Positions 6,403 to 63,894 of a DNA stretch of 64,000 nt are shown in pieces. The notes below the pieces were generated by a model, which did no database searches, was not told the DNA's origin, and saw nothing but the letters and a program-made list of their open reading frames with translations. A program made the translations under genes and the position numbers. Location of the stretch: NCBI GenBank assembly GCA_022316685.1, contig JAKJHU010000360.1, positions 1 through 64,000 on the forward strand. Direction: 5' to 3'. Within the stretch, counting starts at the first letter, position 1. The number at the start of each line of letters is the position of its first letter. The stretch is from Progne subis subis (lineage: Eukaryota; Chordata; Aves; Passeriformes; Hirundinidae).

Positions 6403-7048
6403 ATGGAGACAAGACATATTCTCCTGCTGATTGTTTCTATCATCACCACCCAGACCGTGGTCCAGGCAATAGAACACCCAGAAACAGATGCTGCAGAAGA
6501 TGCTGCGATACGCTATTGCCCAGCATGACAAAAGTAATTACCATCTGTTCCCAAGCCAAATTGTAAAGGTCATAAAGGCAGAAAAGCAAGTTGCAGGAGG
6601 AATCAAATATAACATAGTGGTGAAATTAAAACAAGATTACAAGTATGAACTATGTAACTTAGTGGTATTTCATACACCATGGAAGAACTCAATACAAATA
6701 CTAAAAGACCAATGCCAAAAGAGTGAGCCCCCAACCAACACTCCTGATCCGAAAAAGACTGATACAAACACTCAAAACCCTCTAACAACTAACTTTAGAC
6801 ATAAAAGCAAAGACCAAGTCACAGAACAGATAGCTGCTGAAAAAATTTATAAAACTCCTTTTTTCTTTGTTATTACTGTAACCATTCTTTTACTGCCTTT
6901 ATCCATCTATCTTTATCATTTATATCATCGCAAGGATGTTATTAACGCTGTCTTTTCAGTTTTTCAACAGGGAGGGGAGAACAAACTAGACAAAGACAGT
7001 AAAGGATCAGAGGATGATCCAAATAACCTGCCAAACACCCCCCCTTGA
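6403..7048 (+). pseudogene. ERV-encoded membrane cystatin, frameshifted copy
   Basis: This is the block A copy of the cystatin ORF at 54,014-54,664. The ATG is at 6,403-6,405. A 5-bp deletion at about 6,497, between two GCAG repeats, shifts the frame inside the first cystatin helix. Everything downstream is preserved almost base for base: the QVAGG loop, PW loop, both cysteines, Pro/Thr-rich stalk, transmembrane helix and tail (open from 6,488 to 7,048). The lesion is recent or private to this copy, because block C is intact. Confidence 0.85.
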
Positions 7049-44369: not shown

Positions 44370-44893
44370 ACTAGGAGGCAGAGACAATGGTTAGAATGAT
44401 GGAATTATCCAGCGTGGATTTATCCAATGCTCTTTCCCTAGGGCATCAGAGGCTACCCGTGCATATTTATTCAGAGGGGTTTTTAGTACTAGGGGTACTT
44501 CCCCTGCAGTAGGAAGATCCACCGGAACCGGTCGTCCAGGGAAATGTGCAGGATTCTTAGGATCATCAGGTCCCTGTAGTGAAGGAATCATGCTTGGAGC
44601 TGTTGAGCAGAAAGCAGTGATTTTGGGACACCTGTTTAGTCCCCATCTACCATTCACTCCTTTAACTGCTTCCCATAACTGGACCTCCCAATTTCCCTCC
44701 TGTGGTTTCAAAAGTCATTTCAAGAGACCATTGGTCCTTTCTATGATCCCGTTAGCTTGAGGGTAGTAAGGGGTGTGAAAAATCCATTTAATTCCTTCAC
44801 TTTTTGCCCACTCCTGTACAACTCTAGCAGTGAAGTGAGATCTGTTATCAGACTGAATTTCCTGAAGTTTTGGGAATATTCCAAACCACTCCT
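44370..44893 (-). pseudogene. pol: Integrase core and C-terminus, truncated
   Basis: On the minus strand the frame beginning at 44,893 shows the second core Asp (Ser-Asp-Asn-Arg-Ser-His-Phe) and catalytic Glu (Gly-Ile-Ile-Glu-Arg-Thr) with normal spacing. A C-terminal domain (44,711-44,391) then ends in a Trp-Ile-Asn-Pro-Arg-Trp motif. The zinc domain and first Asp are absent, because the sequence is cut at 44,893 by the LTR of the CEPT1-carrying provirus. It belongs to the env just downstream. Confidence 0.75.
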
Positions 44894-44900
44894 GTCAAGG
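44894..44900. repeat. 7-bp direct repeat GTCAAGG, left flank of the provirus
   Basis: The same seven bases lie at 51,734-51,740 immediately outside the other LTR edge. This is consistent with a 6-bp target-site duplication plus one chance base. Confidence 0.6.
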
Positions 44901-45246
44901 TGATGTCTCGGGGAGCAGCCGGAGTCAGTCACACTCTTCACAGAAGTAATGGTGAATGCTCGTTTATTGCGGGTACACAGGGTTCTTTTATACATATAAT
45001 TCTTGTGCATAAGCTGTTCACATGGCATTTTGCTACTTGCTATTGGCTACCTCCTACGAGCCCTAAGAGGCTATACTATTGGCTAATGTTATCTGCATAA
45101 GCATTCCTTTGCAGTTACCTGTTTACAACTTTGTTCAGGGGCCAACGGCTCGTTCCCACACTCTTCGACCTTGGAGTGCTAAAGCAAACAGCATTTTCCC
45201 AACACTGCAAGGCCTCTCTGTTTCTATCTCCAGAAATCCTTCTACA
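44901..45246 (-). mobile_element. 3' LTR of the CEPT1-carrying provirus
   Basis: On the minus strand it starts TGTAGAAGG at 45,246 and ends CATCA at 44,901. TATAAAAG (about 44,992) and GCAATAAAC (about 44,968) are present. It aligns throughout with the 5' LTR at 51,348-51,733 but differs by many substitutions and short indels (346 versus 386 bp), so the insertion is old or the LTRs have recombined. Confidence 0.78.
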
Positions 45247-45324
45247 ATTCCTGCTTTTTCTTTTGAGCAAGCTAAGCATTAGATATTGTCTTATGCAACA
45301 TATTCTTAATACAAGACATTACAC

Positions 45325-45978
45325 TGTTGGAGTCCAGGGCATTCCTTTGGCTGCCCTGGAGGGTCAGAGACCTGGACAGGGGGGTCTGGGACCCCAGCCC
45401 AGAGCTCAGAGGGACACTTGCTTTGATCTCAGTCCATGGCAGAGGCTTCCAACACTGAGAGATGAATTACAGGCCACAAGAGTGTGAAAAATAGTAGTTT
45501 AGCTTATCACAGGGTGAAAAAACAGTAAATTTAGGTTTCTAGCATTGAAGTGAATGGGAGCAAGATGGAGGATTTGGGGTGTTGTCTCCTGCTTCTTCTT
45601 TCTTCTTCCCTCACTCCATTTCAGCTGTGACAGTGGCAGAAAGTAGTTCAAAGAGATAGGGTCAGAGTAGGTATGACCTGTTTAGTATAAGTGATAGACA
45701 TTGGCAAGTAATGATAAATAAAGAATATGTAGCAATTAGTATAAAAGATAATGACAGCCCAGTTCAGGAGGAGTCGGGAGTCAGAGTTGGAGCCCGAGCA
45801 GCTGCAAACATCTTTTGTGGGGCACTGAGAAAATTGTAAGATGAGAACAATAAACGAAGCATGCAACCTTGAAAAATCAGAACCTGAAGACTCCGTCTCT
45901 TTCTTCCGGTTGGCATAGAGTTTTGCAGAGGGCAAAAAGACTCTAAAACCACCTGAAGGTCGGGGAAAGCCCACGACA
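45325..45978 (+). mobile_element. Solo LTR inserted in the env end, target duplication TTACAC
   Basis: Starts TGTTGGAGTCC and ends CCCACGACA. TTACAC is at 45,319-45,324 and 45,979-45,984. TATAAAAG is at 45,740 and CAATAAAC near 45,846. It interrupts the cytoplasmic tail of the minus-strand env. The block A equivalent is outside the window. Confidence 0.9.
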
Positions 45979-45984
45979 TTACAC

Positions 45985-46552
45985 CACTTAGTACTAATAA
46001 TCCTACTAATACAAGTAATAATATAACAAACACTTGCTTAAAACCAAACTTCTACCATCCCGTAATCCCAAGGCTACTTAACTAATCTCTAAATGCATCA
46101 TCACTTTCTTTTAAATCATGTAATTTGTTCTTCATTAATTGCAATTTTTTTGGGAATTGATCCAGAATGGTCAGACAGGTTCATGCAGCACATTCCTTCA
46201 AACTCTTTACACCCACGGTTATGTGCTAAAAGTAAAAATCAATCGCAGAACAGTTTTGCAAAGCAGCATGATTAACACTGGTAACATCCACTGATAGCTC
46301 ATCAAAAATTTGGCTAGTCACATTCAATTCTGATTTTGTCCAGCATGCCATCTGCTTCAATGTAGTCATTGCTCTGGCGGCTGTTGCTCTTGGAATAAAC
46401 ATGGGTGTTAACACTGTCCCAGCTTGGGACCAGAATTTGGGATCTCCCACGTCTATACAATGAGCTAATTGAAGGGATCCTGCAACACTTGTTGACACCA
46501 TGAGCAGAAGGCACGCAACACATGAGAGCATTTTACCATGCGGAACTGCCAT
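45985..46552 (-). pseudogene. env: env transmembrane subunit without surface subunit
   Basis: The minus-strand ORF 46,552-46,226 starts with a signal peptide and passes, after about 20 residues, straight into the ectodomain of a transmembrane subunit with a Leu-Gln-Asn immunosuppressive-type segment. A frameshift at about 46,226 precedes a CX6CC motif (about 46,185-46,210), and the membrane span lies at 46,033-45,985. The surface subunit that binds receptors is absent. The tail continues beyond the solo LTR below 45,319. It belongs to the provirus that carries CEPT1. Confidence 0.75.
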
Positions 46553-46995
46553 ATCCCTTTTTTAATGGCCCACACTGTATGCGCAAATCTCCAATCTGCT
46601 ACTCCACCAAAATCTCCAGGAACAGGGTTAGGTATCCCCAACACTACCTGTGCTGCTTGATGAAAAGCACCAAGGGTACCACTATAGCAATGGTCACACA
46701 AACCACCCTCACGCCAAAGCTTTGGTGTCTCTCTCCCAAATTGTGCACCACAAACTCCGCAGCTCACTTCTATAACTATTACTCCCTGACACTGAGGACA
46801 CTCTTTTTCTTGCCACTCATGCAAGTCCTGGGAAAGTTCCAATGATCCCAAGGGGCCTTGGTGACCAATAATGAATGCTACAACCCAGTCTGGGTCAGGA
46901 GGGCGTTGTTCACCAGTGGCCTTGACCACCACCTGTCTCGGCAAGGACTTGATGATCCTTCTTCCTTCTTTTCCTTCCTTGCCAGCCGAGTCCAT
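46465..46995 (-). CDS. Cys-X2-Cys ORF overlapping the env start, 176 aa
   Basis: An open frame with a basic N-terminus and four CxxC pairs at residues 66-69, 79-82, 100-103 and 164-167, a pattern fitting one or two zinc-ribbon-like sites. It has no signal peptide or membrane segment. Its last ~29 codons overlap the env signal-peptide frame (46,552) in another phase, as accessory ORFs in retroviruses often do. The block A copy (1-593) is broken. I do not recognise it: it could be a viral accessory protein, remodelled env surface sequence, or another captured host fragment. Confidence 0.55.
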   Translation of the reverse strand: MDSAGKEGKEGRRIIKSLPRQVVVKATGEQRPPDPDWVVAFIIGHQGPLGSLELSQDLHEWQEKECPQCQGVIVIEVSCGVCGAQFGRETPKLWREGGLCDHCYSGTLGAFHQAAQVVLGIPNPVPGDFGGVADWRFAHTVWAIKKGIWQFRMVKCSHVLRAFCSWCQQVLQDPFN

Positions 46996-47544
46996 TTACT
47001 CGGTTCCCATTGTGGTCCAGATGCACAGCTCAAAGGCTTGGGTGCAGCTGTTGTCGAATTCGCCTCAGAGGTGCCCTGATCGCTGACCAGCAGGTTTCAG
47101 AGTGACAGATTCCAGGGCCCTTGGAGATCTGTCAGTCTGGGATGAATTTGAGATCAGCTGCTCTGGCCAGAAGTGTTCCTCTTATCTTCTCTGGAGCTGA
47201 CCATCTGGCTTTTTATCTTCAGAGGGCTTGTGGTGTTCACTGCGTGCAGAAGGCTTACTGTGACCCTGTTCAGCATGAAACCGCTTTGTCAGCAATGCAC
47301 AAATGAAAACCACCCCAACTTGGCTCTTACTTGGCAGCTGCTGCAGCCACACAACTTAGTAAGGTATCTTTGGGTTTTCACCAGGTTAAGTCTTTAGTAA
47401 ATAAATTCCAAGTGGACACTAAACAATTATTTCACTAAGAGATGATGAAATTTTAAAATTAAAAGCAAGTCAGACTGCAGATGTAATTAAACTACATAAG
47501 AAACTCCAGTTGGTGGGGATCCATTCACTATATAGAGAGAAATT
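46996..47544 (-). other. Unassigned stretch, block C equivalent of 540-1,075
   Basis: No convincing gene. It carries the same short decayed frames as block A. The sequence from about 47,400 to 47,544 is AT-rich. Confidence 0.5.
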
Positions 47545-47550
47545 ACTAAT

Positions 47551-48265
47551 TGTGGTGGTGCAAAAGGTTGATTTGTTATGTTTTACTTGTTATATAAAGT
47601 TTTTCTGTAAATTTTATATGAGATTTCATAATAGTATGTTCCATTGTACCCCCCTGTCCTTTGTAATAGTTCCTCCCCCGATGAGTTGTTATGTAAGAGT
47701 TCATTTCTTGTCAATCATCCCTCTCCCTCACCTGTCCCTGTCAATCCTCTCCCTCTCCTCTTGGGCGCCCTGTCTGTCACTTCGGGGCCCTTCCCTGGTT
47801 TCTGGAAAGATCCAGGGAGGGCGTCGAGTGATTGGTGGACGCCTGGGAAATCCCCCACCTCCTTCTTGCGATTGGATCCTGTTCAAAGGTTGACATCCTC
47901 TGTTACACCCCCTTATTCCCTCATTGGCTGGCCCGTTGTCGCCACCCCCAGTTCCACCCCCATTTAAAAGTTGTTGCACAGCCCTGCTCGGGGCTCTCTC
48001 TGGGCAGTGGCTGACTGAGGCGGAGCTCCTTGTCAGACTTCCCGCCAATAAACCATCCTGTTACCCTGTCAGAGAGTGCCGACTCTTTATCTGCCGCCGT
48101 GGTCGTGTCTTCATCAAAGCCCTGTCGCTGGTGTGGGGAATCAAGACCCCACAGGGAGGAGGTGGCTTGCCCAGCCTGCCACCCCAACCTCGCCACACGT
48201 TAGCCGCAGTGTGGGCTGAGCTAGCCTTTGGGCTGCGCCAACCGAGCGCAAAGGGCACTGCGACA
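47551..48265 (+). mobile_element. Solo LTR with target duplication ACTAAT
   Basis: Starts TGTGGTGG and ends CTGCGACA. ACTAAT lies at 47,545-47,550 and 48,266-48,271. Block A has the empty site (AGTAAT near 1,071). A TTTAAAAG box (about 47,963) and CAATAAAC (48,046) show plus orientation. The 715-bp length and 6-bp duplication fit an alpha/beta-type element. Confidence 0.95.
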
Positions 48266-48450
48266 ACTAATCAAGGTAATTACAAGGACCGAGCATTAGT
48301 TTCCTGCATGCTTTCCCAGGCTGGGAACCAACAGAGTTGACTTCATGGAAAGTTGACTAGGGTGAACTCGGAACTCACTCTCTCAGCCAGAAGACTAGTT
48401 AAGGAGTGTTACTGATAACAAAGAAGAAAAGTTATACAACATTGATTATT

Positions 48451-48839
48451 TGTCACCCTGGTTTTTCTGAGTTTTTTAAAGCCTTTTGATTGTTCATAAG
48501 ATGGAGTCAGACTTTTTAGCTACTGTACAATATTAGGAGCAGTTTTTGCCTTTTCTCACACATGTAACATAAACAAATCCTTTGTTTTTCATTCTCTGTC
48601 CTTTGTTTGCATATTTCTGACCCGAAAACAATTGTAACTGACAGTTGGTCTGGCCATTCAGCTGGGAGGTGATAACTCCAGAAGCCAATCCACAGCCAGA
48701 CCCACAAATGTATAAAAAGTAAGAAATAAACAGGCAGAGGGGCTCTCGGCCTTGGCTCAGCCTTGGGCTCTCTCGGAGGAACGTCTCTGCTCTGCGAAAT
48801 CTCTCGTCTCCGTGTGGTTGCTTTGCATGTCCGATCACA
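48451..48839 (+). mobile_element. Solo LTR with target duplication ATTATT
   Basis: Starts TGTCACCC and ends CGATCACA. ATTATT lies at 48,445-48,450 and 48,840-48,845. TATAAAAAG (about 48,711) is followed closely by AATAAAC (about 48,725). 389 bp. Block A has the TTA microsatellite and no LTR at the same point. Confidence 0.93.
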
Positions 48840-48950
48840 ATTATTATAAATTACTTTGTTCTCATCTGCTTTTAGCATTTGTCTCTTACAAGTTTTCATC
48901 CATTCCTGTAGAAACCTAACCCTTTTTCCATTCCCCTCTGGCAGCTCCCA

Positions 48951-49940
48951 TCACTGGTGGTGGTTCGAGGGCATGGGGCAGCCCTTGATGCGGAACACGT
49001 GGATGTGCAGGTGGGCAGCAATTCTGGCTGCACACGCTGACACAGTATCGGAGCAGGTCAGACAGGGACAGGATCAGGGCAATCCAGAGGACAATATACT
49101 CATCAATAAAGCTGTTAAAATGCTTGGTCAAGGAACAGCAATGCTGGGCCTATGAATGCTGTGTTATATAAGTACATATCACTCTTGGCCATGTGGGCAA
49201 CCACCAGTTGATTTGTGATCTTGGCAGACACAAAGCCAAAAGTCAGGCTGTAGAGGCAGAGGTGCCTCTCAAAGAGCTGCACAGCAGATTTCTCGTAGAT
49301 CATTGCAGCCGAGACAATCATGGAGCCAATATGGAGAAAAGGTGAGAGGACACTTGTTCCTGCTATAGTGGATCTATTTTTGCCAACTCTAATTTGCACA
49401 GGAGAATATGGTTCCTGCCACAGTACAATGAGCTGGGGGTATTTTTACCTGAATGTTCAGTCTTGGAATTAGAGATTGGTAAAAAGGTGTTCCTCCAATC
49501 ACTGCCAGTAAATGCATGATTATTATGAAGATTTGTACTTTAGTCACATCAATCATGCCGAAGCGCAGTGTTCTTGAGATGTACGTCTGTCAGTGTGCGC
49601 AGTAGAACATGAATGTCACAGCAAAACAACAGAAGAACATCCAGTCAGGGTTGGTGTCCAGCTGCACAACAATACAAGTTCCCAAAACCACAAAGACTGT
49701 GGACAATGAATCACAGCTATGATCAAAAAGTTCTCCTAACGGAGTGCTGCTATTTGTCCTTCTTGCTTGTTTTCCATCTGTAGCATTGAGGGACTGGAAT
49801 GCCACAGGCACAAGCAATGAATGTCCCGGAAGGCGTCTGCCTTTGAAGATGTTGAGCAGTAACATACTAATAACAGAGTTGTTATTAGTATGTTATTAAC
49901 AGTTTGATGATGGTGATCAGATTGGGAGCAGTCCAGGCTG
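48951..49940 (-). pseudogene. CEPT1: Intronless CEPT1-like sequence inside a provirus (block C copy)
   Basis: This is the better-preserved copy of 1,445-2,358. Reading on the minus strand it covers the Ala-Pro-Asn-Leu-Ile-Thr-Ile-Ile region (about 49,930) and the complete CDP-alcohol phosphotransferase signature DG-x2-AR-x8-G-x3-D-x3-D (in the ORF 49,865-49,590). The membrane segments follow, and then the C-terminus, whose stop is TGA at 48,951-48,953, one codon beyond the natural end. It is intronless. Lesions: stops near 49,880, Trp to TGA after the CAH tripeptide, loss of about 9 codons before Val-Gly-Lys-Asn near 49,385, and a frameshift at 49,150. It joins gag capsid at about 49,941 with no poly(A) tract or target duplication of its own. 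Confidence 0.87.
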
Positions 49941-51060
49941 CAGAATTGATACTGCAGTATGAATCCAATCTAACATTGTTCGAGCATTTTTCAGATTTCA
50001 AGCTGTGCTCTTTTACTGTGTTTTTTTTTTTTTTTTACCTGTTGCAAGATTTTCCATTCATGCTGCTCACACACAGGATTGCCATCTCTGAACACGACAG
50101 GACACGCTACAGGACATGCCATGTGTCCTGCGGGTTCCCACTGTCCTTCGAGTACAGCATCACCTATAATTTTGGACCATCGAGTCACGGAGGGGGCAGG
50201 CAAAGGTGTTGCCTGGGAACTGCTTTCTGCAGTTTGTTCTAGCAGTTGTCGCATTGGAGTTAACTGGGAGCTGAAAGATGTTGGCTCCTCCTGATTTTTA
50301 GCATTTATTGTAGATAATTCTTGGGCCTTTTCCAGTAGCAGCTTAGTTGCTGCTTGCGCTCGCTCCTTCAGGCGCTGCATCACTGCCTGAATTTGATCAG
50401 TCAGTTCTTTTAAACCAGTCATGGGTTCTGTCCAGGGTTCTGCTGGGGGAAGCAGTGCTCCATCATCGAGGTCCTCCTCTAATTCATCCGGCAGCGGAAC
50501 AGCGTCTGGGGAAGGTGGTTAACAGCAGGGGTCACGGGTTCCCCTCTCTTGGTAGACCAGTGTCTCTTTGGGCACAGCCAGGAAAGGGGGGGGCACATGG
50601 CACATGTGTAGTGGTAGCAGTAGGGCTGGGAGTGGCTCCGGAGGGGTTTTGAAGCATTTTGGCTACTGTACTACACTGGGTTGCCGTCAGGCCTTTGATC
50701 GGGGGGAGCGCCTTGCTTCTGAGAAAAGCTCCAAGCCGGCTTTGTGGTGGTGGTGGCGGTGCGGGAGCAGCGCACCGGAGCTCAGGTGACGGGGATGGTC
50801 TGCGGGCCGGGAGCGGCGAGCCGGGCATCGGCCAGTGACGGTGCCGGGGCGCTGGAGGCGGCAGGAGGGCACGGCAGGGGCCCCTGCAGCTCCTCTCAAA
50901 CTTCACAGCATCGGGGGGTTGTTAAATGTCCATTTCCCTGCGCCCAGTTAATCAGCTTTTGCAGTACTTTTTCTGCTACTGCCTTTCCTCTCTCAGAATA
51001 TAATAATAAGCAACTTCAATGCGGCAGCAAATTCGCACTCCATGCTTGCCATCGTCAATG
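49941..51060 (-). pseudogene. gag: Betaretrovirus-like gag fused to CEPT1 (block C copy)
   Basis: Matrix start at about 51,052; matrix end (Leu-Ile-Asn-Trp-Ala-Gln-Glu) near 50,945. A proline-rich p10-like ORF (50,906-50,532) follows, then the ORF 50,422-49,991 with a Gln/Lys/Glu helix and the capsid start (Arg-Trp-Ser-Lys-Ile-Ile, Trp-Lys-Ile-Leu-Gln-Gln near 50,055). A T17 run (plus strand, about 50,020-50,037) shifts the frame. Capsid sequence resumes to about 49,941 and then changes to CEPT1 sequence without nucleocapsid, protease or RT. Confidence 0.75.
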
Positions 51061-51321
51061 GAGCAGGGAAGGGAGTACTCAGAGCTTTCCACTTTTTTTC
51101 AAGAAAACTGCCCCCTGCTCCCCCTACCAGCTCAGCCTCGCAATCTATTTGCAAGGACGGCGAGCTTCTATCTCAATGCTGATGCATCTCTCGGCAGATC
51201 AGCCTCTGACTGCTATTTTCTGGAGGGTCTCACCTCAATGCAGCTGCATCTGTCGGTGAGTTCAGCGTCCAACTGCTCAGCGTCCCACGGCTAATTTTCT
51301 CCTCCAGGTCGTCACCCCAAG

Positions 51322-51339
51322 GTCTGACGTTCAGTGCCA
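51322..51339 (-). promoter_or_regulatory. Primer binding site, tRNA-Lys-like (block C copy)
   Basis: The minus strand reads TGGCACTGAACGTCAGAC, eight bases from the LTR edge. With the block A copy, the shared form is TGGCGCTGAACGT, closest to the Lys-1,2 primer site among the standard sites. Confidence 0.5.
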
Positions 51340-51347
51340 ATTAAAGG

Positions 51348-51733
51348 TGATTTTGAAAAAAAACACTGGGAACAGCCAGAGTCAAACACCTTCTTCATAG
51401 AAGTAGTGGTGAATGTTCATTTTATTGAGGGTACAAAGGGTTCTTTTATACATACATCATTCTAGTGCATAAGCTGTTCACACGGCATTTTACTACATGT
51501 CATTGGCTATCTCCTCCTGTCCACAAGCTCCAGGCAGCTATACTATTGGATAGTGTTATCTGCATAAGTATTCCTTTGCAGTTACCCATTTACACTTTGT
51601 TGAGAGGCCATCAGCTTGTTCCCAGGCTCTTTGTCCTGGTTCTCAGGCTCAACGTCCTTGACAGTGCTGAAACAACAGAACTTTCCAAGCACTGGAAGGC
51701 CTCTCTGTGTCTGTCTCCAAAAATCCTGCTACA
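51348..51733 (-). mobile_element. 5' LTR of the CEPT1-carrying provirus (block C copy)
   Basis: Minus strand TGTAGCAGG at 51,733 to ...AAAATCA at 51,348, with TATAAAAG near 51,446 and CAATAAAA near 51,422. GTCAAGG lies directly outside (51,734-51,740). Confidence 0.82.
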
Positions 51734-53722
51734 GTCAAGGAACAAACAATCGTGTTTCAGCTGATTGTCATCAAAAACAATCCCAAGACGCTCCATGAAC
51801 TGCAACAGCTCTGTGGTTCCATTAATTGGGTTCAAACCCTTCTTGGAATTTCCTCAGAAGACCTCGCTCTGCTTTTTAACCTTCTGTGACGGAGCTGTGA
51901 ACTCAGTTCTCCTAGGAGCTTGACCCCTGAGGCAAGAAAGGCAATTACCTGCATCCAAGAGGTTCTGTCAGCCTGACAGGCCCACAGGTATGATCCATCT
52001 TTTCCATTTCTGATTGCAGTGTTAAGTAGAGTCCCACATTGGAGTGGACTGATTTTTCAATGGGACCCAGACTTAAAAGACCAGTTGCTCATCCTCGAAT
52101 AGGTTTTCCTTCAAGCACAACCAACTAAAACAGTAACCACACCGCAAGAAACCATGGCAGCAGTCATCTGTAAGGGCAGGGCTCGCTTCTGCTCTCTTGT
52201 GGGGTGTGACCTTGCATGCATCTACATGCCATTGGCAACTACTGAGGAGCTAGAGTTTCTGCTCCAAAATAATGACAACCTCCAGTTTGCCCTAGATATC
52301 TATCCAGGAAAAATTTCCATCCATATCCTGGCCACAAATTATTTAAAGCAGAACTTCATTTGGTTCCCAAATTCATTCAAGGTAAAACTCCTCTCGAAGC
52401 TGTGACAGTCTTTACAGACGGCTCAGGGTCTTCTCATAAGTCAGTCATGACTTGGAAAGACACTAGGACACAGAAGTGGGAGTCTGACGTCCGAGTAGTG
52501 GAAGGATCTCCACAAATTGCTGAGATGGCAGCCGTTGTCAGGGCATTAGAGAAGTTCAAAGACCAACTGTTTAACCTAATCACAGATTCAGCATATGTAG
52601 CTGGTATAGCTATGAGGGCTGAACATGCCTTTTTAAAGGAGGTGTCAAATAGAAACCTTTATAATTTGCTTTCTAAACTGATTTATCTTATCTCCCACAG
52701 AAAGCAACCATATCATGTCATGCATGTGAGGTCGCACACTGACCTTCCCCGTGCTATCGTGGACAGCAACAAGAGAGCAGAAGCACTGGCAATGGCGGCA
52801 CAAACACCAGCCCTCCCAGACACGTTCCAACAAGCCAAGCTCTCCCATCAATTTTATCATGAGATTGTCCCAGCACTAGTGAGGATGTTTCACCTCACCA
52901 GGGGACACGCCAAAGCTGTGGTGGGATCATGTCCGCAATCATATCTGACGTGTCTGTGTCTGCCAATCATACCAGGTGCCCTTTTTAGACAAAGGCATCA
53001 ACCCAGGAGGGCTCAATAGTAATGAACTGTGGGAGACGGACGTTACACATATTCCATCTTTTGGTAGGCAGAAGTATATTCACATGTCAGTAGATACGTT
53101 CTCAGGCGCAGATTTCGCCTCAGCACATGTGGGTGAAAGCATCTGCTTTGTTAAAAGACATTTCTTATTGGCCTTTGCAACTCTGGAAATTCCCCAGAAA
53201 ATTAAAACAGACAATGGCCCGGCCTACTCCTCAAAACAGCTAAAGGCATTCTTCCAAGATTGGGGCATCAGACATAACAAATGGATACTGTGCTCTCCCA
53301 CAGGACAATCAGTCGCTGAGAGGACACATCAGACTCTTAAGAGAGTCCTTCACCAACAGCAGGGAGGTTCAGAGACACTTCCTCCCATTGAGAGGCTCTG
53401 CAAGGCACTTGATGTAATGAACTTTGTAAATTGTTCAAGCACTGAGCCTAATGCCCCCGTTGTCAGGCACTTCTCGAATTCAGCCTAAGCTAGGCTTGAA
53501 GAGAAGCTGCCTGTGTTGATCAAGGACCCAGAAACACATCAAATATCAGGCCCTCTTCGGTTGATTACCTGGGGTAGAGGGTACACATGTATATCCATGC
53601 CTACAGGCCCTAGGTGGCTTCCTGCAAAGAACATCAAACTTTACCTAGGACCCATAGATACTAACAAAGCCAATTCTGAGCAAAATACAGAGTCACCAAA
53701 GGTGCAGCAGACAGCCACTTAG
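51734..53722 (+). pseudogene. pol: Pol fragment: RT connection, RNase H, integrase (block C copy)
   Basis: Same extent as 4,124-6,211. Open parts are the RT thumb (to 51,889), RT connection (52,154-52,405), RNase H plus integrase zinc region (52,360-53,019), integrase core (52,976-53,488) and C-terminal domain (53,513-53,722). The RNase H residues (Asp of FTDGSG, Glu, Asp of DSAY) and all three core residues (Asp of WETDVTH, Asp of KTDNGP, Glu of VAERTH) remain. The zinc site has Cys-Pro-Gln-Ser in place of Cys-Pro-Gln-Cys. Frameshifts at about 52,395 and 53,000 and a TAA at 53,486 disable it. Confidence 0.82.
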
Positions 53723-54013
53723 AAGAGGAGGAGAAGATGGCCGGTCCCACAAAGGACAGCTCAGTGTCCTGTGACCAGCCAAGAGACAAGACAAGCAAGG
53801 CCTACCAGATGCAACAAAAACTAAGAAAAGAAGTGATTTCTTTCCTTACCCTTTATTCCTTACCCTTATTTCCTTACCCTCTCCCACAAAATCCTTTTAC
53901 CCAAACTATGTTAACTTTATTTAAAAATATCTCTTCTATTTGTTAAACTACTAAATTGTTGTTTTTTATTGATATCAAACACTAACCCACCGTCCTGCAA
54001 AAAGAGACAAAGT

Positions 54014-54664
54014 ATGGAGACAAGTCATATTCTCCTGCTGATTGTTTCTATCATCACCACCCAGACCGTGGTCCAGGCAATAGAACACCCAGAAACAGAT
54101 GCTGCAGCGCAGAAGATGCTGCGATACGCTATTGCCCAGCATGACAAAAGTAATTACCATCTGTTCCCAAGCCAAATTGTAAAGGTCATAAAGGCAGAAA
54201 AGCAAGTTGCAGGAGGAATCAAATATAACATAGTGGTGAAATTAAAACAAGATTACAAGTATGAACTATGTAACTTAGTGGTATTTCATACACCATGGAA
54301 GAACTCAATACAAATACTAAAAGACCAATGCCAAAAGAGTGAGCCCCCAACCAACACTCCTGATCCGAAAAAGACTGATACAAACACTCAAAACCCTCTA
54401 ACAACTAACTTTAGACATAAAAGCAAAGACCAAGTCACAGAACAGATAGCTGCTGAAAAAATTTATAAAACTCCTTTTTTCTTTGTTATTACTGTAACCA
54501 TTCTTTTACTGCCTTTATCCATCTATCTTTATCATTTATATCATCGCAAACATGTTATTAACACTGTCTTTTCAGTTTTTCAACAGGGAGGGGAGAACAA
54601 ACTAGACAAAGACAGTAAAGGATCAGAGGACGATCCAAATAACCTGCCAAACACCCCCCCTTGA
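54014..54664 (+). CDS. ERV-encoded, membrane-anchored cystatin (216 aa), intact
   Basis: A cystatin-superfamily domain, a cysteine-protease (cathepsin) inhibitor fold, in a retroviral genome between integrase and env. Predicted signal peptide at residues 1-22. The helix and strand that open type-2 cystatins follow (about 32-62), with the first inhibitory loop Gln-Val-Ala-Gly-Gly (64-68) and the second loop Pro-Trp (94-95). Cys86 and Cys106 match the C-terminal disulfide. About 23 residues holding the first disulfide of ordinary type-2 cystatins are missing between 77 and 83, and the N-terminal Gly of the trunk is absent. A Pro/Thr-rich stalk (109-150), one transmembrane helix (about 154-176) and an acidic cytoplasmic tail follow. 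The frame is open 15 codons further upstream, but this ATG is directly before the signal peptide. A branch-point-like CACTAAC lies just upstream. Activity is untested. Confidence 0.9.
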   Translation: METSHILLLIVSIITTQTVVQAIEHPETDAAAQKMLRYAIAQHDKSNYHLFPSQIVKVIKAEKQVAGGIKYNIVVKLKQDYKYELCNLVVFHTPWKNSIQILKDQCQKSEPPTNTPDPKKTDTNTQNPLTTNFRHKSKDQVTEQIAAEKIYKTPFFFVITVTILLLPLSIYLYHLYHRKHVINTVFSVFQQGGENKLDKDSKGSEDDPNNLPNTPP

Positions 54665-54790
54665 AGGGACAGCAGTTTAAATTTCTTTTATCTTACCCCC
54701 CTCAAAAACTTCCCCAGATACCTGTTTCCCGTACCCCTTCTTTTCCTAAAGTTCCCTAGTTGCCTAAATAATATGTTGATAGTTTAAACT

Positions 54791-54805
54791 AGTTTTTCTT
54801 TTTAG
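54791..54805 (+). promoter_or_regulatory. Probable env splice acceptor (block C copy)
   Basis: AGTTTTTCTTTTTAG, 27 bases before the env ATG and identical to the block A site. It lies between the cystatin stop and env, so each would be reached by a different spliced RNA. Confidence 0.5.
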
Positions 54806-54832
54806 AAGCAAACCCCAAAGGACCCCTCTGAG

Positions 54833-55615
54833 ATGAGAGGCAGTTACCGTGTCACAGTGATGCGGATGCTCCTCACACTCCTCATGCTCCTCAACATCAA
54901 AGCATGGAAGATCGGACAACCACCAGAAAATGTGTGGGTGACACTTGCCAAGACCCTCCGGCAAGACAATTTGTGCCTGTCCATGGGCTCCGTCAGCAGT
55001 CCTCTGTCGTCGTGCCTGGTAGGAATCCCATTCGGAATCAACGAGCCATCACCTCCGCATCCCTTTGCAGGGAACTGGCCTGCCCTGCCCACCGCAGAGA
55101 AAGGACCAGCCCGAGGAGCCTGGGAACAGTGGGTGAAGCTCATACCCAAAGCTACAACAGACGCTCACAAAGAAAACCCAGTAGCAAACTCCGAGTCCCA
55201 AGAGCTTGATCTGCTTGTCTCAGCAAAAGCTAGTCATTGTTTTAATTTTCACTTTCAAAATACGGCCTCTAGTTACAAAAATCAAAGTAAACCCCCTAAA
55301 CAAAATTTTCAATTCGGTCAACAGTGCAACTACACAACAAAAATTCCATTTGACACTTCTGGCTTCCTTATTCCCAGGGCACTTCCCAAGGGTGTGTTCC
55401 TGATTTGCGGCGATAGGGCGTGGGCAGGAATCCCTTCCCGCATCCAAGGAGGTCCATGCACCTTTGGCCAACTTACAACACTCACCCCAAACATTACTCT
55501 CTTACAAGAATGGAAACAAAAGAATAAATTTGCCCGTCCAAAAAGATCCTATACCCAATTTGATGAAAATTTTGATGCCACCCTTTTTGATTGGTGTCCT
55601 TGGGTGACTTTATGA
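54833..55615 (+). CDS. env: env surface-subunit N-terminal ORF, truncated, 260 aa
   Basis: An open frame with a Leu-rich signal peptide (about residues 8-25), then a surface-subunit domain with Asn-Val-Trp-Val-Thr-Leu, several cysteines, and a Cys-Gly-Asp-Arg...Trp-Ala-Gly-Ile-Pro segment near residue 190. It ends in Trp-Cys-Pro-Trp followed by a stop, where LTR-like DNA begins. It lacks the rest of the surface subunit and the whole fusion subunit. If made, it would be a secreted fragment. Block A has the same end, so the truncation is older than the duplication. Confidence 0.75.
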   Translation: MRGSYRVTVMRMLLTLLMLLNIKAWKIGQPPENVWVTLAKTLRQDNLCLSMGSVSSPLSSCLVGIPFGINEPSPPHPFAGNWPALPTAEKGPARGAWEQWVKLIPKATTDAHKENPVANSESQELDLLVSAKASHCFNFHFQNTASSYKNQSKPPKQNFQFGQQCNYTTKIPFDTSGFLIPRALPKGVFLICGDRAWAGIPSRIQGGPCTFGQLTTLTPNITLLQEWKQKNKFARPKRSYTQFDENFDATLFDWCPWVTL

Positions 55616-56229
55616 TGCTTGTATCCCCAGTCGTCTGCTCTGTTTGTGCTGTATATTGAGTTCTGTGCCTTTAAGACTGGTTCTAAGAGCAAGGAGAAGC
55701 ACGAAGTTTGTTTTGAGAAAATTGCCTGACTCCTCCACATTCTTCTCTAGACGGGGTGTTCAGCAGAGATTTTTTTTGCTTTTAGTTTCAGCTAGCTAGG
55801 GCAGAGAAGTTCCCTGGACTGTTTTTTTTTCTTTCTTTTTCCTTGGAACTGTTTAAACCTGGTCTGAACTGAAAAAACCCAGGGGAGCACTGGGGGCTAC
55901 ACCTGCAGCCCACCAGGGCCTGGACCTCGGCATTTTCCAGCAGCGCCGGAGGGACTGGGACTGAGGAGAGACTGAGAGAGAGCCGAGCTCCACCCACGGC
56001 AAGGACTTTCTTAATTTGCCATCTCAGTCCAGAACGAGAGGTTTTATTGTTTAATATTATTCATTCTTTATACTTGTATGCACTTTGTTCGTTAAGTAAA
56101 ATAGTTTTTTCCACTTTTCTCCAAAGAAGTTTTTTACTGGACTGTTTGGATGGAGGGGTCAATTGGGTTTGCTTCCCAGAGGGATCCCATTCAGGGGTTT
56201 TCTCCCAAATTTGTCCCTAAACCAGAACA
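55616..56229 (+). mobile_element. LTR fragment downstream of env (block C copy)
   Basis: Collinear with 8,000-8,643, including the TTTAAG box, a T-rich stretch (55,822-55,845) and the AACCAGAACA end at the satellite. Confidence 0.55.
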
Positions 56230-58287
56230 GAGTGATTGAGACCAAATCGACAGAGATGAAATGAGGCACAATGAAAAGGACCAAAACTTGCCAAAAGTAC
56301 TCCAATTGAAATGCTGCAATCAGGCAAGAAGTGGAAATAAAGGAAGGAAGGAGAGAAAATGAAATTGAGGAAATGCAAGCTTAAAATGAAAAAGCAAAAA
56401 ATGTTTAAAGCATGTGAAAAGCAAAAAGTGAATGGGATGACAAGAAGTGCAGGGAAAGGGGTTGAAACTTGCCCAATTAATCTTCCTTGAAACCTTGAAA
56501 ACAGGGAACAAAGTTTAACAAGCGCTCAGGAAAGGAGATATTGTGAGAAACAGTGCGAGTGAAAACAACTGAGATAATCTGGAACCAGAGTGATTGAGAC
56601 CAAATAGACAAAGATGAAATGAAGGTTACTGAAAAGGGCCAACACGTTCCAAACGTACTCCAACTCAAATTCTGCAATTAGTCAAGAAATGGAAATAAAT
56701 GATGGAGAGGGAAAAAAATCTAAAAAATGAAAACTTAAAATGAAAAAGAGAAAATTTTGAAAGCATGTGAAAAAAAAAGTTGATGGTATGAGAAAAAGTG
56801 ATGGAAAAGGGATGGAATCTATCTACATTAATCTTCATTGACTTTGCAAGATTTCATTCACTTTCCCAAAAGGAACACTTTCCTTTTGGGAAACGGAATG
56901 AAAACTTGAAAACAGGGAACAAAGTCTAACAAACAATGAGGAAAGGAGATATGAGGAGAAACAATGTGAATGAAAACAACTGAGATAATTTGGAACCGGA
57001 GTTATTGAGATCAAATGGACTGAGCTGAAATGAGGGGCACTGAAAAGGACCAACACTTGCCAAACATATGCCAATTCAAATGCTGCAATCAGGCAAGAAA
57101 TGGAAATAAATGAAGGAGAGGAAAATAAATTGAAGAAATGCAAGCTTAAAATGAAAATAGGAAAATTTTGAAAGCACATGAAAAGCAAAAAGTGAATGGG
57201 ATAATAGGAAGTGCAGGGTAAACAACTGAAGCTTGCCCAATTTATCTTCATGAAAATCTTGAAAACAGAGGAAAAAAATAACAAACACTCAGGAAAGGAG
57301 ATATGGTGTGAAACAACCTGAATAAATACAAAAAGGAGAAATTTTGGAACCAGAGTGATTGTGGCCAAATGGACGGAGCTGAAATGAGGGGCACTGAAAA
57401 GGACCAACACTTGCCAAATGAACTCCAAGTCATGTGCTGAAATCCGTCAAGAAATGGAAATAAAAAAAGGAGATGAAAAGAAATCCAAGAAATGCAGGCT
57501 TAAAATGAAAAAGGGAAAAATTTGAAAGAATGTGTAATTACAAAATGAATGCGATGACAAGAAGTGCAGGGAAAGGGACAGAGGCTTACCAAAGTAATCC
57601 TAATTGAAATTGCAATATTTCATTCCTTTCCCAAAAGGAAAGTCGTCCTTTTGGGAAAGGGAGTGAAATATTAAAATCAGGGAACCAATAAGAAGAAATG
57701 CTCAGGAAAGGAGATATGATGAAAAAGAATGCAAATTAAATCAACTGAGATAACTTGGAACTGGAGTGATTGTGGCCAAATGGACTGAGATTAAATGAGG
57801 GGCACTGAAAAGGAAAAATATTTGGCAAACATACTCCAATTCAAATGCTGTAATTAGGCAAGAAATGGAAATAAATGAAGGAGAGGAAAAGAAATGGAAG
57901 AAATGCAAACTTAAAACAAAAAAAGGAAAAATTTTGAAAGCACGTGAAAAGCACAAAATGGATAGTATGACAAGAAGTGCAGGGAAAGGGACAGAAACTT
58001 GCCCAATTAATCTTCATTGAAATGGCAAGATTTCATTCCCTTCAGAAAGTCTTCCTTTCGGGAAAGGGAATGAAATCTTGAAAACAGGGAACAAAGTCGA
58101 ACAAACGCTCAGGAAAGGAGATATGATGAGAAACAGTGCGAATGAAACAACCGAGAATATTTGGAACCGGAATGATTGAGACCAAATGGACTGAGCTGAA
58201 ATGAGGGGCACTGAAAATGACCAACTTTTGCCAAAATACTCCAATTCAAATGCTAACATCAGGCAAGAAATGAAAATAAAAGAAGGA
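56230..58287. repeat. Satellite array, ~415-bp period, about 5 units
   Basis: Markers at about 56,323, 56,685, 57,095, 57,450, 57,870 and 58,263. The hairpin pair is visible at 56,856-56,900, 57,620-57,665 and 58,033-58,075. This array has about two more units than block A. Confidence 0.93.
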
Positions 58288-58804
58288 TGTTGCGGTTCCT
58301 TAAGCGTGGTCTCCACGCTCGCCCGGGCTAGCTCAGGCACCGTGGTGTGGAAAGGTACGGACAGCTGGCCGTGCCAGCTAACCCGATCCTGTGGGGCCTT
58401 GGATCCCACACGACCTCGGCAGCAGGCACAGGTGGTGCAGGGCAACGACGGTGGAGATAGAAATGCAGACTCTGCTGAACGGGTCACAAGATTTAATTGG
58501 AGCCCCGGCGTGGGACCTCCCGACCTCCAGGTAACTGCCTAGGCAGAGACCCCCAGGCTGCTTGCCAGCAGCTTTTATCTGGGGGTGGAACCAGGAGAAG
58601 AGGCAGTGGGTGAGCAAATCAGGGATCACCAGGGAGGTGTCACATGGATGAATGATATTTTCATAAACCATGCACAAATGCTGAAGAGAGAGCCCCTCTG
58701 GATCTGACCTATCACTCGATGCCCTTGGAAGAACTTTCTAGCTCCAGGGGAAGGCCCCAAGATGACAGGCAGACCCCAGACGAGGGGGGAGAGGGGGATT
58801 GACA
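58288..58804 (-). mobile_element. Minus-strand LTR at the satellite edge (copy C)
   Basis: Minus strand TGTCAATCCCC at 58,804 to CCGCAACA at 58,288, with both ends canonical. Promoter box GATAAAAG near 58,573 and AATTAAA near 58,492. Confidence 0.78.
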
Positions 58805-59431
58805 TATAACGGTTTGAGGGGAGAAGAGTAAGGAAAGATCATTAGGGGAAACAAACCGGGATACATAGAACAAACCATAAATTAATAGCACATACGATAA
58901 AACCAAAACCAAATCCCACACCACTACAGAGCTCCCCACCAGATCTATTAAGGTGGTCCTGAGCTTAGACCAGGCTCCCTTGGAGAAGGAGTTCCAATTA
59001 CGATAATGCATAAGAAGCCAGCAATACGAGGCATGCATAAAAGCTCCTGTTGGAGTGCCGGCTAAATGTAAAGGTGCCTGTAAAACGCCTTGTGCACAAG
59101 AACTGTGTGGTAAAACGGACTGTGTAAGTACCATGGGGTTGAGCAGGTGGGCAGCTGTATATTTGTGTGTGTGTAGAATATCTAAAATGGGGGCTGGTAG
59201 CCCAGACCCCCGAAGCAAGTGTGAACCTCCCAGTACCGTGTTTTCAGTTCTCTTTGAGGAGACCAGCTGGGAAAGGAGGGAAGTGAAAAGAGAGAATGAG
59301 TGAGGTTCCCTGGGAGGGACTGGCAGGGAGGGTCCCGGCCCGAGAACCCAGGGGAAGTTCCTCAAGGAGAAGGGAGCAATCTGATCACTGGGCGAGGTGA
59401 ATAAGGAGGGGAGCAATTGAGTCACGTTCAA
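58805..59431 (-). CDS. env: Env tail-like ORF, longest copy (239 codons with LTR extension)
   Basis: Open on the minus strand from 59,431 to 58,712, crossing the LTR edge. There is no ATG at its start, so it is a 3' fragment. It contains a Cys-bearing ectodomain-like part, a membrane span (about 58,890-58,960) and a Ser/Pro-rich tail encoded inside the LTR. It is probably the end of an env. The family is not recognised and CX6CC is not visible. Confidence 0.42.
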
Positions 59432-59681
59432 TTTTCTTTGAGAAGAAAATAGTTGGTAACTTTAGTACGAGACTAAGAGAGATTGCAAGGGGAAGTGGCT
59501 AGAAGGATATAGTCAGGGAAGAGAGATTGGGAGAAAGATTGGAATTAGGCATGAGGCAAACAGTTGGTAAAGGACGAGATAGTGCAACAGAATAATAAAT
59601 GAGAGGACTGAACCACGAAGTGAGTGAGGGAGACCAAGATTCTCCTGGTACCGGGGTTTTCTTGATTCGTTACCACCAAAA

Positions 59682-61292
59682 ATGGGTCCAAGGAAAAGTA
59701 AGTCCTTATACCCAGTAGCTGTGAATTATGAAGAAAATTCACAAGAGTCTGGCATACCTGGAAACAGAGACAAGGGTTCTCAGAAGGAGAGCATCCCTCA
59801 GGACAGTCCACTGGGGATGATGTTACAACACTGGGATGCATGGGAATCCTGAAGAAGAAAAAGTAAGCAGAAAATGATTAATTATTGTATGTTTGAATGG
59901 ACAAAGGAAATGATTGGGAAAGATAATTTATATTGGTCAAAGTGTGGATTGTTTGAAGATTGGATTTGCCAGGCTTTGAATTTGTATGTGAATTCAAACA
60001 AAACTTTTAATCCAGAAGAAAGTGAATATGCTCCTCTGTGGCTTCCCAGGGGAAAGGGTGAATTTGTCACTCGAAGGCAGGGAAGCAGGGATTTTCCATT
60101 CTATCCTTTACAAACTAAAGGGCAAGCAGCTAAACAAGACAGACATGAGCCCTACGATCCGTTGGATCACCTCCCAGCCCCTTATAGGCAACCTAATCAG
60201 CCCGTTCAACCCCAAGCCCCCGAGGGTCCTCCTGTAAATGCAAACACACCCCCTATTCAGGAGGAGCCAGTAGCACATAGAACTAGAGGGGAGGGGACGG
60301 GGAGAAGTGATGATGGGGATGGGGAAGCAAAAATGGAAGATGGACTACAGACGCTTAGAAAAGTTCCAATGGCAAACCCAGAACAGAGACCTATTGGTGA
60401 TGTGAGTGTTCCCCTGAACACAGGGGATGTTAGGGAGTTTAAGAAGGAGATGGGCAGGCTGCTAGAGGATCCTATTGGAGTGGCAGAGAGATTAGATCAG
60501 TTCTTGGGGCCAAATATATACACCTGGGTGGAACTGCAGTCTATCTTAGGAATCTTGTTTACCATGGAAGAAAGAGAAATGATTAGACATTCAGGAATGA
60601 GGGTTTGGGATAGAGAATGTCAGGGGCCAGACCAGGGGGATCAGAAATGGCCTATGCAAGATCCAGGTTGGAATAATCAGAATGAAAGACACAGACAGAA
60701 TAGGAGTGATCTCTGGTGGATGATTATCCAAGGAATCTGGGAAGCAGTGCCCAAGGGGCAGAATATAGGGAAAGCTCTAAGTGAACACCAAGGGAAGGAT
60801 GAACCCCTGGCAGACTGGTTAGAAAGACTAAGGAAAGACTTGCAGGTATATTCAGGTGTAGACCCTGATACTGCAGCAGGACAGGTCCTTTTGAAAACAC
60901 AATTTGTAGCTAAGTTCTGGGGGGACATCGGGAAGAAGCTGGAAAAAGGAGAAAATTGGCAGGATAGGGGGCTTCAGGAATTGTTAAGAGAAGCACAGAA
61001 AGTGTGTGTGAGAAGAGATGAGGAGAGGCAAAAGACAAAAACACAGATTTTAATGGCAGCAGTCAAGGAAACACAGACAACCATGAATACAGAGAAGCGC
61101 TCAGGAAAGAACAAACAACAGAAAAAGGCAGGTCCCACCTCTGGGGATACGAGACCCACGTGTTTTTCCTGTCACCAGAAAGGACACTTACAAACTTCTT
61201 GTCCTACCTCCAGGGGTACAGGACCCACTTGTTTTTATTGCCACAAAAAGGGACATCTACAAAAATTCTGTAGAAAGAGGCAGCGAGACTGA
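59682..61292 (+). pseudogene. gag: Gammaretrovirus-like gag, nearly complete (copy C)
   Basis: The ATG at 59,682 gives Met-Gly, a likely myristoylation start. One TGA at 59,850-59,852 (CGA in copy B) is the only break in a 536-codon frame. From 59,874 it is open for 472 codons through matrix, a Pro-rich linker (late domain PPPY changed to PAPY), capsid (about 60,390-60,990), a charged linker and two CX2CX4HX4C knuckles (about 61,156-61,270). It stops early by 7 codons compared with copy B, out of frame with protease. It is the best gag in the window. Confidence 0.85.
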
Positions 61293-63890
61293 GAAAATAT
61301 TTCAAGAAGATTTAGGGGGGTCAGGAGCTCTATTTAATGAGGTCTGAACACCTAGAAGAGCCCTTGATAAAACTGAAAATAGGTCCTCAAAAGGAAGAAA
61401 TCACATTTTTGATGGACACAGAAGCTACTAGGTCCACAGTAAGAAGACTACCACAAGGATGTGAAGTAAGTTGTGAACGTGTCCCTGTAATTGGGGTTAA
61501 AGGAGAAATTTTTCAGGTTCCTGTAATTAAAAACGTGCAGATAGAACAGATAAAAAAATTTGGACTGAATGATTTGTTATTAATACCAGAGGCTGATAAT
61601 AATTTATTAGGAAGAGACTGAATAATAACCTTGGGAATTAAAATAACACCCTGTAAAATAACACCTATTCTTTAAGTGAAGAAGATAATTTTGAGATTAG
61701 TGACACTGTGTGGTATACTGGTGAAGTAGGAAAATTAAACATTCAGCCCATTAGCATTGAAGTACAGAACCCAGAAATCCCCATTCGAGTAAAACAATAT
61801 CCGATAGCACTGGAAGGTCAGAAGGGATTGAAACCAGTCATTGAGAATTGAGTACATCAGGGGGTGTTGGAGTCCTGTGTGTCACCACATCATACCCCCA
61901 TCCTGCCGGTAAAGAAGCCTGATGGTAGCTACCGACTAGTGCAGGATCTCAGAGCGGTAAATCAAAGAACCATTACCCGCTGTCCAGGAGTAGCTAAGCC
62001 AGATACCTCCTAATTACATTTGGTACAGTGTCGTGGATTTAAACAATGCCTTTTGGAACTTGCCCCCTGGATGAGGGCAGTAGGATTGCCTTTGAGTAGG
62101 AGGACCCAGATACAGGTAGGAGAGAGCAATTAAGGTGAACGGTGCTACCGCAAGGTTTTACAGAGGCACCTAAATCTTTTTGGGAGGGCGTTAGAAAATC
62201 TTTGGAAGTCCTTTGAGTTACCCAAAGGAATTAAGCTGCTACAGTATGTAGATGATTTGTTAGTAGCAAGAGAAGAGGAAACTAGAAAGGGTACTATTAA
62301 GCTTCTAAATTTTCTGGGAGAAAACGGGCTGAAGATATCAAAGTCAAAATTGCAGTTTGTAGAGTCAGAAGTGCGGTATTTAGGTCATTGGATTAGTAAG
62401 CAAAAGAAAAGGCTAGACCGTGAAAGGGTTTCAGGAGTATTGAACATGGGACTCCCAAAGTCTAAAAGAGAAATAAAGCAGTTTTTGAGTCTTTGGGGTT
62501 ATTGTAGGCAGTAGATAGAAGGGTTTAGCAGAAAAGTTAATTTTCTGTATCAGAAATTAACTACCAATTGCTTGAAACGGACCAAAAGGGATCAGGAAAA
62601 TTTTGAGCAAGTTAAAGAATCCCTATTGCAAGCTCCTGTAATGAGTCTTCCCAATTTAGACAAGCCTTTTCAATTATTTGTTAATACAGTTGATCAAATG
62701 GTTTATGAAGTATTGAATCAAGATTGGGCAGGAAGTCGAAAGCCAGTAGGATATTATTCCAAATTATTGGATCCAGTTAGTAAGAGTTGGCCAACATGCC
62801 TGCAAGCTCTGGTAGTCACTGCTGTGTTAGTAGAAGAAGCCTGAAAAGTAACATTTGGGGTGCCAGTGGAAGTGTACACACCCATAATATTAGGGGAATC
62901 CTTGCTAAAAAGGCTGAAAACTGGTTAACTGATGGCAGAATATTAAAATATGAGGCTATCTTGATAGCCTCCCCTTAATTACAGCTGAAAGTGACAAATA
63001 TACAAAGCCCCACTCAATTCCTTTATGGGGACCCAGGGGAAGAATTAATACATGATTTCACAGAGGTCATAGAGTTACAAGCAAAAATATGCCCAGATTT
63101 AAGAGAACAAGAATCAAAAATAGGAGAAAAATTATTTATAGATGGATCATCCCAAGTGGTAGAAGGAAGAAGGAAATCTGAGTATGTCACAATTCATGGA
63201 GAAAAACTGGAAGTAAAAGAATCTGGTCCCCTTAGCCCGTCCTGGTCAGCACAAGCCTGTGAACTCTATACATTATTCCCTGCATTGCTGTTATTAAAGG
63301 ATCGAGAAGGGACCATATACACCGACTCAAAATATGCCTTTGGGGTAGTGCACACATTTAGAAAAATTTGGAAAGAAAGGGGACTTATAAACACTCAAAG
63401 AAAAGGATTAGTGCACCAAGGATTGATAATTCAAATTCTTAAAGCTTTGAGGAGTCGAAAAAAGATAGCAGTGGTTCATGTGAAAGGCCACTGAGGGGGA
63501 GAAGCAATTAAAACAAAAAGAAAAAATTTGGGTGATGATGAAGCTAAGAAAGCTTCCCTGAGGGAAAACAGCAATGTAATTATGACTTTTCAGGAAGCAG
63601 GAACACAAAATCAAACACCATACTTTTCTTTAGCAGAAGTAGAAGCCATGAAAAACCTAGGAGCAAGTCTAAAAGAGGGACAATGGATTCTCCCTGACAA
63701 AAGCACAGTTCGAATGGCAGAAAAAGGCTAGATTCATGCTTCAAGGGTAAAAGCACCTATACCCAATAAAGACTGGAAAATTATTTAGACACCAAGAGAC
63801 CAGAAAGTAAAATTAAGAAAGTCTTATATTTGATTAAACTTTTTTACTGAGGTTCAAAATACAGTTTGAAGTAAAACTGTAATTAATTCA
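61293..63890 (+). pseudogene. pol: Protease, RT and RNase H of the gamma-like ERV (copy C)
   Basis: The protease ORF 61,337-61,621 has Met-Asp-Thr-Glu-Ala at the active site. RT has VKKPDGSYRLVQDLR (about 61,911), LPQGF (about 62,150) and an intact YVDD at about 62,245-62,256, the only copy with the catalytic pair. RNase H is open at 62,991-63,494 with Asp-Gly-Ser-Ser and Thr-Asp-Ser-Lys. TGA at 61,849 and TAA at 62,011 are shared with copies A and B. The frame ends at the same non-integrase junction (63,731 onward). Confidence 0.8.
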
Positions 63891-63894
63891 CGAC

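Follow-up and report, generated by a model that had tools for sequence, protein, structure and literature searches.

According to the accessible part of PMC2553070, the contact sites of cystatins are an N-terminal glycine, the QxVxG loop and a Pro-Trp loop, and trimming of chicken cystatin before the glycine is cited there as lowering its affinity for papain 5000-fold. Virus-carried cystatin genes are described in the same text for the bracovirus (a polydnavirus) of Cotesia wasps; their products, with no anchor described in that part, were modelled as type-2 cystatins with both disulfides and the full wedge. In the literature we searched, the viral cystatins were these bracovirus ones. Retroviruses also capture host genes, among them oncogenes and the cyclin of walleye dermal sarcoma virus, the host mRNA becoming an extra gene; to our knowledge, no protease inhibitor is among the genes so captured. 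Here we describe a gene predicted to encode a membrane-anchored cystatin, situated in a retroviral fragment of the bird Progne subis subis (assembly GCA_022316685.1, contig JAKJHU010000360.1, positions 1 to 64,000, hereafter the window). It is apparently virus-carried, as are the bracovirus genes, but differs from them in its anchor, its trimmed wedge, its single disulfide pair and its avian setting.

The open reading frame (ORF) runs on the forward strand from an ATG at 54014 to a TGA at 54662-54664 and holds 216 open codons. The original prediction had placed it at 53969..54664; the intact frame of 216 codons stood, whereas its start at 53969 is an upstream in-frame TTG. Of 3000 random 4.3-kb sequences of the local composition, 12 contained an open stretch of at least 216 codons, and a chance origin is therefore unlikely; the cystatin match described below settles the matter. 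The predicted layout comprises a signal peptide (residues ~1-22, cleavage position judged by eye), a cystatin domain (23-108), a stalk of the Pro/Thr type (109-151), a membrane helix (~154-175) and a tail up to residue 216. Hydrophobic 19-residue stretches at residues 4-24 and 150-176, both in one frame, agree with the signal peptide and transmembrane helix claimed at the outset. Type-2 cystatins have a signal peptide and no membrane anchor, from which the second of these stretches departs. The product is thus predicted to be a membrane-anchored, protease-inhibitor-like protein.

By profile as well as by fold, the ORF belongs to the cystatin superfamily. The Pfam Cystatin profile PF00031 matched it at 31.8 bits (cut-off 22.2), and structure prediction yielded a cystatin fold within 1.2 Å of chicken cystatin, both in support of the domain originally proposed. 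Fetuin-B, latexin and monellin also matched the model, as is expected from a fold held in common. The top solved relatives were chicken egg-white cystatin entries (43.8-45 bits; presumably MEROPS I25B), which aligned in two blocks, residues 7-58 and 82-108, with chicken residues 59-81 having no counterpart in the ORF. This missing stretch is the beta3-beta4 insert of type-2 cystatins, carrying the first disulfide. At neither position of the first Cys pair of bird cystatins does the ORF have a residue, so that the two disulfides of type-2 cystatins are not present and the claimed removal of the first disulfide loop is borne out; the model places the deletion in the turn that links strand 69-79 to strand 82-93. 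The invariant C-terminal Cys pair is matched by C86 and C106. Phytocystatins likewise have no insert between these strands, and several match the window protein in one continuous block, but at 31 bits or less as against 45 for the bird cystatin; we know of no signal-plus-anchor build among them.

The inhibitory sites are only partly retained. The N-terminal Gly column, nearly invariant in bird cystatins, is a gap in the ORF, as are the preceding Arg and Leu columns. QVAGG of the ORF aligns with QIVAG/QLVSG of bird cystatins, the Gln and final Gly of QxVxG being retained and its middle Val replaced by Ala, so that the motif is not strictly present. A Pro-Trp second loop occurs at residues 94-95. 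Hence the Pro-Trp loop and C-terminal Cys pair of the original prediction held and its QVAGG loop is there with the Val to Ala change; that change and the absent glycine arm had both gone unremarked. Since the arm is absent while Gln, Gly and Pro-Trp remain, binding of cathepsins would be weaker or retargeted. The domain is likely an inhibitor of lowered or changed affinity, and inhibition of cathepsins by it is plausible.

Contig C2231 carries the host egg-white cystatin gene, whose three exons match the house sparrow protein at 83-95% identity. The window gene spans both host exon junctions without introns and with the exon order kept; by eye, the last 20 or so residues of exon 2 are absent and the match resumes at about the start of exon 3. 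Cystatin profile matches were obtained in at least 83 stretches of the genome (105 candidates scored), comprising 10 host gene pieces (six on C446, two on C1112 and two on C2231) and 73 stretches that, by eye, lie at places of the window cystatin gene. Compared with the window protein, the egg-white gene scored 35.0 bits, by exon 3 alone, and the next host piece 15.8 bits, which is noise level. The pieces on C446, which we take to be kininogen/fetuin-like, and on C1112, which we take to be stefin-like, were accordingly rejected as donors, on a comparison limited to eight pieces of 171-261 bases. When the sparrow protein served in turn as the query, it matched nothing besides the egg-white gene and copies of the window cystatin gene. 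Against 120 listed cystatins the window protein scored 33.9-54.4 bits with many near-ties, and in the domain tree it grouped with its open relative P0001 (97/93; see below) on very long branches, so that no one bird group stands out as the donor. The gene is nearest the bird egg-white cystatin gene, and was likely captured from host mRNA. It shares with egg-white cystatin the fold, the best sequence match, the C-terminal Cys pair, Pro-Trp and the exon order; it differs by having no introns, beta3-beta4 insert, first disulfide or glycine arm, and by its Ala in QxVxG, stalk, membrane helix and tail.

The surroundings of the gene are retroviral (Table 1), with integrase upstream and env downstream as first reported. 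The integrase core is not in frame with RNase H, whose own frame stops ahead of it; pol is therefore broken in the window. The nearest solved structures to the integrase core were 5cz2 (133 bits) and 3jca (132 bits), which we take to be of mouse mammary tumour virus, compared with 73 bits for Rous sarcoma virus integrase 1c0m. Since the env is of the gp85 type, the fragment 52976-55615 would be a mosaic of beta-like pol and alpha-like env.

Table 1. Features of the window around and related to the predicted cystatin gene
Feature	Position	Strand	Evidence
Second cystatin gene copy (residues 32-216, 98% identity)	6491..7045	+	Genome search, unit comparison
Reverse transcriptase (RT) thumb fragment, 5' limit of recognised pol	51764..51886	+	Pfam RVT_thumb 43.1 bits, residues 32-72 of frame 51671-51886
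RNase H and integrase zinc-binding domain	52360..53016	+	Pfam RNase_H 49.8 bits, Integrase_Zn 27.3 bits
Integrase core	52976..53485	+	Pfam rve 65.5 bits
Integrase C-terminal DNA-binding domain, end of pol	53489..53719	+	Pfam IN_DBD_C 31.4 bits
Splice-acceptor-like site before the cystatin gene, T-rich tract	53930..53978	+	Copy comparison, sequence reading
Predicted membrane-anchored cystatin gene	54014..54664	+	ORF, Pfam, structure matches, hydrophobicity, model
Splice-acceptor-like site before env, T-rich tract and AG	54770..54805	+	Copy comparison
env, surface subunit and start of transmembrane subunit, truncated	54833..55615	+	Pfam Avian_gp85 56.1 bits
Tandem repeats of ~411 bp (satellite) after the retroviral fragment	56205..58287	+	Repeat comparison

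We compared 50 copies, the window's own among them: the 30 best loci by cystatin score and 20 picked from the list of a genome search in which 150 of 191 candidates were scored, copy counts being lower bounds. An acceptor AG before the cystatin gene, separate from that of env, was present in 43 of the 50 copies; the AG before env was present in 49, and one copy was not alignable there. Integrase lay upstream in 30/30 and env downstream in 29/30 of the best loci, on the same coding strand. The gene appears to be built as a retroviral accessory gene: it is read in the same direction as pol and env, sits between the two and has its own putative splice acceptor. Two stretches, 44986-45127 and 51446-51594, are alike (79-83%) and resemble minus-strand ends of long terminal repeats (LTRs), the second lying directly before the pol fragment. 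An Rfam search of 44000-64000 and a tRNA scan each returned none.

A protein search over 5.8 billion sequences found four relatives among 158 candidates, and a second search with a two-row alignment yielded the same four proteins only. Three of these (P0002-P0004) come from three contigs of Hirundo rustica rustica, as gene models in which the first part of the cystatin gene is joined to pol-region sequence and, in two of the three, also to env sequence. The fourth, P0001, on a contig of 2107 bases, is open and 39% identical to the window protein over its whole length, with the same insert absent and the same anchor and tail. It reached chicken cystatin at E 0.006 and scored 12.7-34.7 bits against the 120 listed cystatins, and it is these latter scores and its match to the window that tie it to the cystatins; the Pfam profile of another family matched it weakly, below cut-off. 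When neutral drift to 44% identity was simulated (substitutions only), a mean of 6.0 stops arose and 2 of 300 runs were stop-free; selection thus probably maintained both open frames through most of that period, prior to the amplification. A genome search with P0001 for a second lineage gave at least 203 matches, those listed lying, by eye, on contigs already known, and two scans of viral contigs for relatives confirmed none of 103 and 20 stretches. Retroviral origin rests on the gene order, the splice sites and P0001.

The cystatin gene matched at at least 97 distinct places on 90 contigs, fragments included. Together with the Hirundo rustica models, this excludes a host exon misplaced by assembly error, which had been a worry at the outset. 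Matches were full-length at at least 49 places, 34 of these 49 being without a stop by the search's own alignment, which is blind to bridged indels. The 49 other copies compared were 95-99% identical to the window in the main aligned piece, which measured ~3 to 3.7 kb in most; one (L006) aligned only up to window position 54717, and several were interrupted, with later pieces at 90-96%. Downstream flanks were in common with the window beyond env into the 411-bp repeats in 19 of 20 copies, with only 142 bases of common sequence before the repeats in L064 and none shared by L068. The window itself contains three partial repeat units (1-20429, 23622-40900 and 46465-64000; spacing ~17.1 and 31.1 kb), two carrying the cystatin gene and the middle one without the cystatin fragment. 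Given the common flanks and the units repeated in the window, separate proviral insertions were dropped, and the simplest reading is that the places are copies of one large unit of DNA that was amplified, though a larger mobile element including the satellite may be involved instead. The amplified retroviral piece is most simply a fragment from the RT thumb to the truncated env. The original picture of a retrovirus carrying a cystatin therefore stands for the domain, the anchor and the gene position; in place of a family of separate proviruses there is, most simply, an amplified fragment. Contigs C655, C718 and C737 had identical match coordinates and scores and are probably assembly duplicates, so that places are not loci of the bird. 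The same amplified unit holds, at 59874-61292, an open gag-like frame of 472 codons from another retroviral group (Gag_p30 64.0 bits, two zinc-knuckle-like motifs by eye). Elsewhere in the window, an array of ~8-bp tandem repeats occupies 20313-20800 in a stretch of strong GC skew.

We propose that a retrovirus captured the spliced mRNA of a bird egg-white cystatin gene, and that the insert was lost and the stalk, membrane helix and tail gained before the two known lineages split. The captured gene would have been expressed from its own spliced mRNA, placing the protein on virions or infected cells, its cystatin wedge facing out; there or within endosomes it may have bound cysteine cathepsins, less tightly than host cystatin does or with changed targets. 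The provirus would later have become a fragment in a large repeat unit, amplified as DNA, in which the gene drifts. We consider this history, with its anchored cathepsin binder, evenly balanced between right and wrong. Several observations weigh against it. The alignment behind the confident structure model already contained 42 cystatins, and the N-terminal glycine arm of inhibitory cystatins is not found in the ORF. In P0001, the only distant relative, QVKGN and LW stand in place of QVAGG and PW, and the glycine arm is likewise not seen. A gene kept for inhibition should retain these features, and a block on cathepsins is weakened accordingly. P0001 was also unmatched by the Pfam Cystatin profile at E up to 0.1. 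The window copy is one of the seven of 50 without the acceptor AG before the cystatin gene, and neither a pair of LTRs nor a complete provirus could be recognised around the window's fragment. With flanks in common in 19 of 20, the copies are no testimony to separate infections. Finally, the mean pairwise dN/dS (ratio of amino-acid-changing to silent substitution rates) of the cystatin gene, a check suggested with the original prediction, was 1.50 over 50 copies; no purifying selection was seen, and there is no sign of upkeep of the gene in this genome.

The strongest competing explanation, which we regard as unlikely though deserving serious weight, is that the cystatin fold was retained as a scaffold for a receptor, Env or immune protein, protease inhibition being lost and the anchor and tail forming the working part. 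Between the window protein and P0001, the helix and tail (28/40 identical) are better conserved than the cystatin domain (34/85), the stalk (9/24), the hydrophobic start (7/22) or the C terminus (7/22 aligned positions), and the altered loop residues of P0001 and the arm absent from both point the same way. Binders with a cystatin fold that do not act on proteases, such as engineered Affimers, were among the structural matches. On the other hand, in the 25 copies of the cystatin gene (of 50) with neither a frame-breaking indel nor a stop, Gln, Ala, Gly and Gly of the first loop and the Pro-Trp were constant (position 65 differed in one of 25) while 28 of 85 domain positions varied, these copies being few and chosen by similarity.

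It is improbable that a cystatin cDNA entered a dead provirus fragment inside the repeat unit and never was a viral gene. The compared copies do resemble descendants of one unit, and no complete provirus with the cystatin gene was seen. Such an entry sits poorly with an acceptor AG of the gene's own in 43 of 50 copies, its coding strand and its place between integrase and env, and with a hydrophobic start, anchor and tail in one frame; the open relative, moreover, is too diverged to stem from the recent amplification.

More doubtful still is host co-option, in which the bird would use the product of the amplified gene as a membrane-anchored inhibitor of host or viral proteases. The 34 stop-free copies of 49 would agree with this, but recent copies are expected to be open still, and copies without a frame-breaking indel relative to the window were as many for integrase (29/50) as for cystatin (30/50), with 7/12 for RNase H and 5/47 for env, in which a single place sets up to 32 copies apart from the window. 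Variants present in at least three copies were amino-acid-changing rather than silent in a proportion of 49 to 10 for cystatin (neutral ratio 2.58, P ~0.04), as diversifying selection could give; yet env, with its few indel-free copies, had the same excess (50 to 10, P ~0.03). Integrase variants of this class were poorer in amino-acid changes than neutral (41 to 25, P ~0.06), and when all variants were counted none of the four genes departed from neutral (cystatin 118 to 35, P ~0.09). We did not build on the excess, as several tests were made on linked copies. Mean pairwise dN/dS was 0.76 for integrase (50 copies), 0.81 for RNase H (49) and 1.11 for env (47). Co-option under purifying selection was dropped, as frame-break counts, dN/dS and variants gave it no support, and the variation among copies fits drift after recent amplification.

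Targeting of legumain through the second cystatin site, rather than of papain-like proteases, is very improbable: Asn N47, in the loop that follows the helix, is shared by P0001 and constant in the 25 intact copies, and legumain-inhibitory cystatins use Asn39 on that loop according to the accessible part of PMC6109925, but N47 lies one column before the bird-cystatin Asn, where the window has Tyr48, and the exosite loop that legumain-inhibitory cystatins carry inserted between strands beta3 and beta4, described in the same part, falls in the stretch absent here.

Returning to the capture of an egg-white cystatin mRNA by a retrovirus, the case is new in its combination, host-gene capture itself being already known; relative to the known retroviral captures, the window gene was rebuilt with an anchor. 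As originally supposed, no retroviral cystatin turned up among the papers listed on cystatins with retroviruses (in one case 10 of 159) and on viral cystatins, a body of text from which subscription journals were mostly missing. A wider proposition, which we put forward tentatively and with less confidence than the history of this locus, is that a class of bird retroviruses with beta-like pol and alpha-like env carried a spliced, anchored cystatin gene derived from egg-white cystatin, with a conserved helical tail, in at least two long-separated lineages, and that its product may have targeted cathepsins of the endosome or else Env on the surface of virions and cells. If the gene was indeed viral, a retrovirus would have obtained a surface-anchored, cathepsin-directed tool by host-gene capture, which would link retroviral biology to endosomal proteases, provide a natural loop-trimmed cystatin on a membrane stalk and add a new sort to the host genes that avian retroviruses are known to have taken up. 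In its amplified state, the probably captured gene persists as many open frames after breakage of the provirus, without detectable selection.
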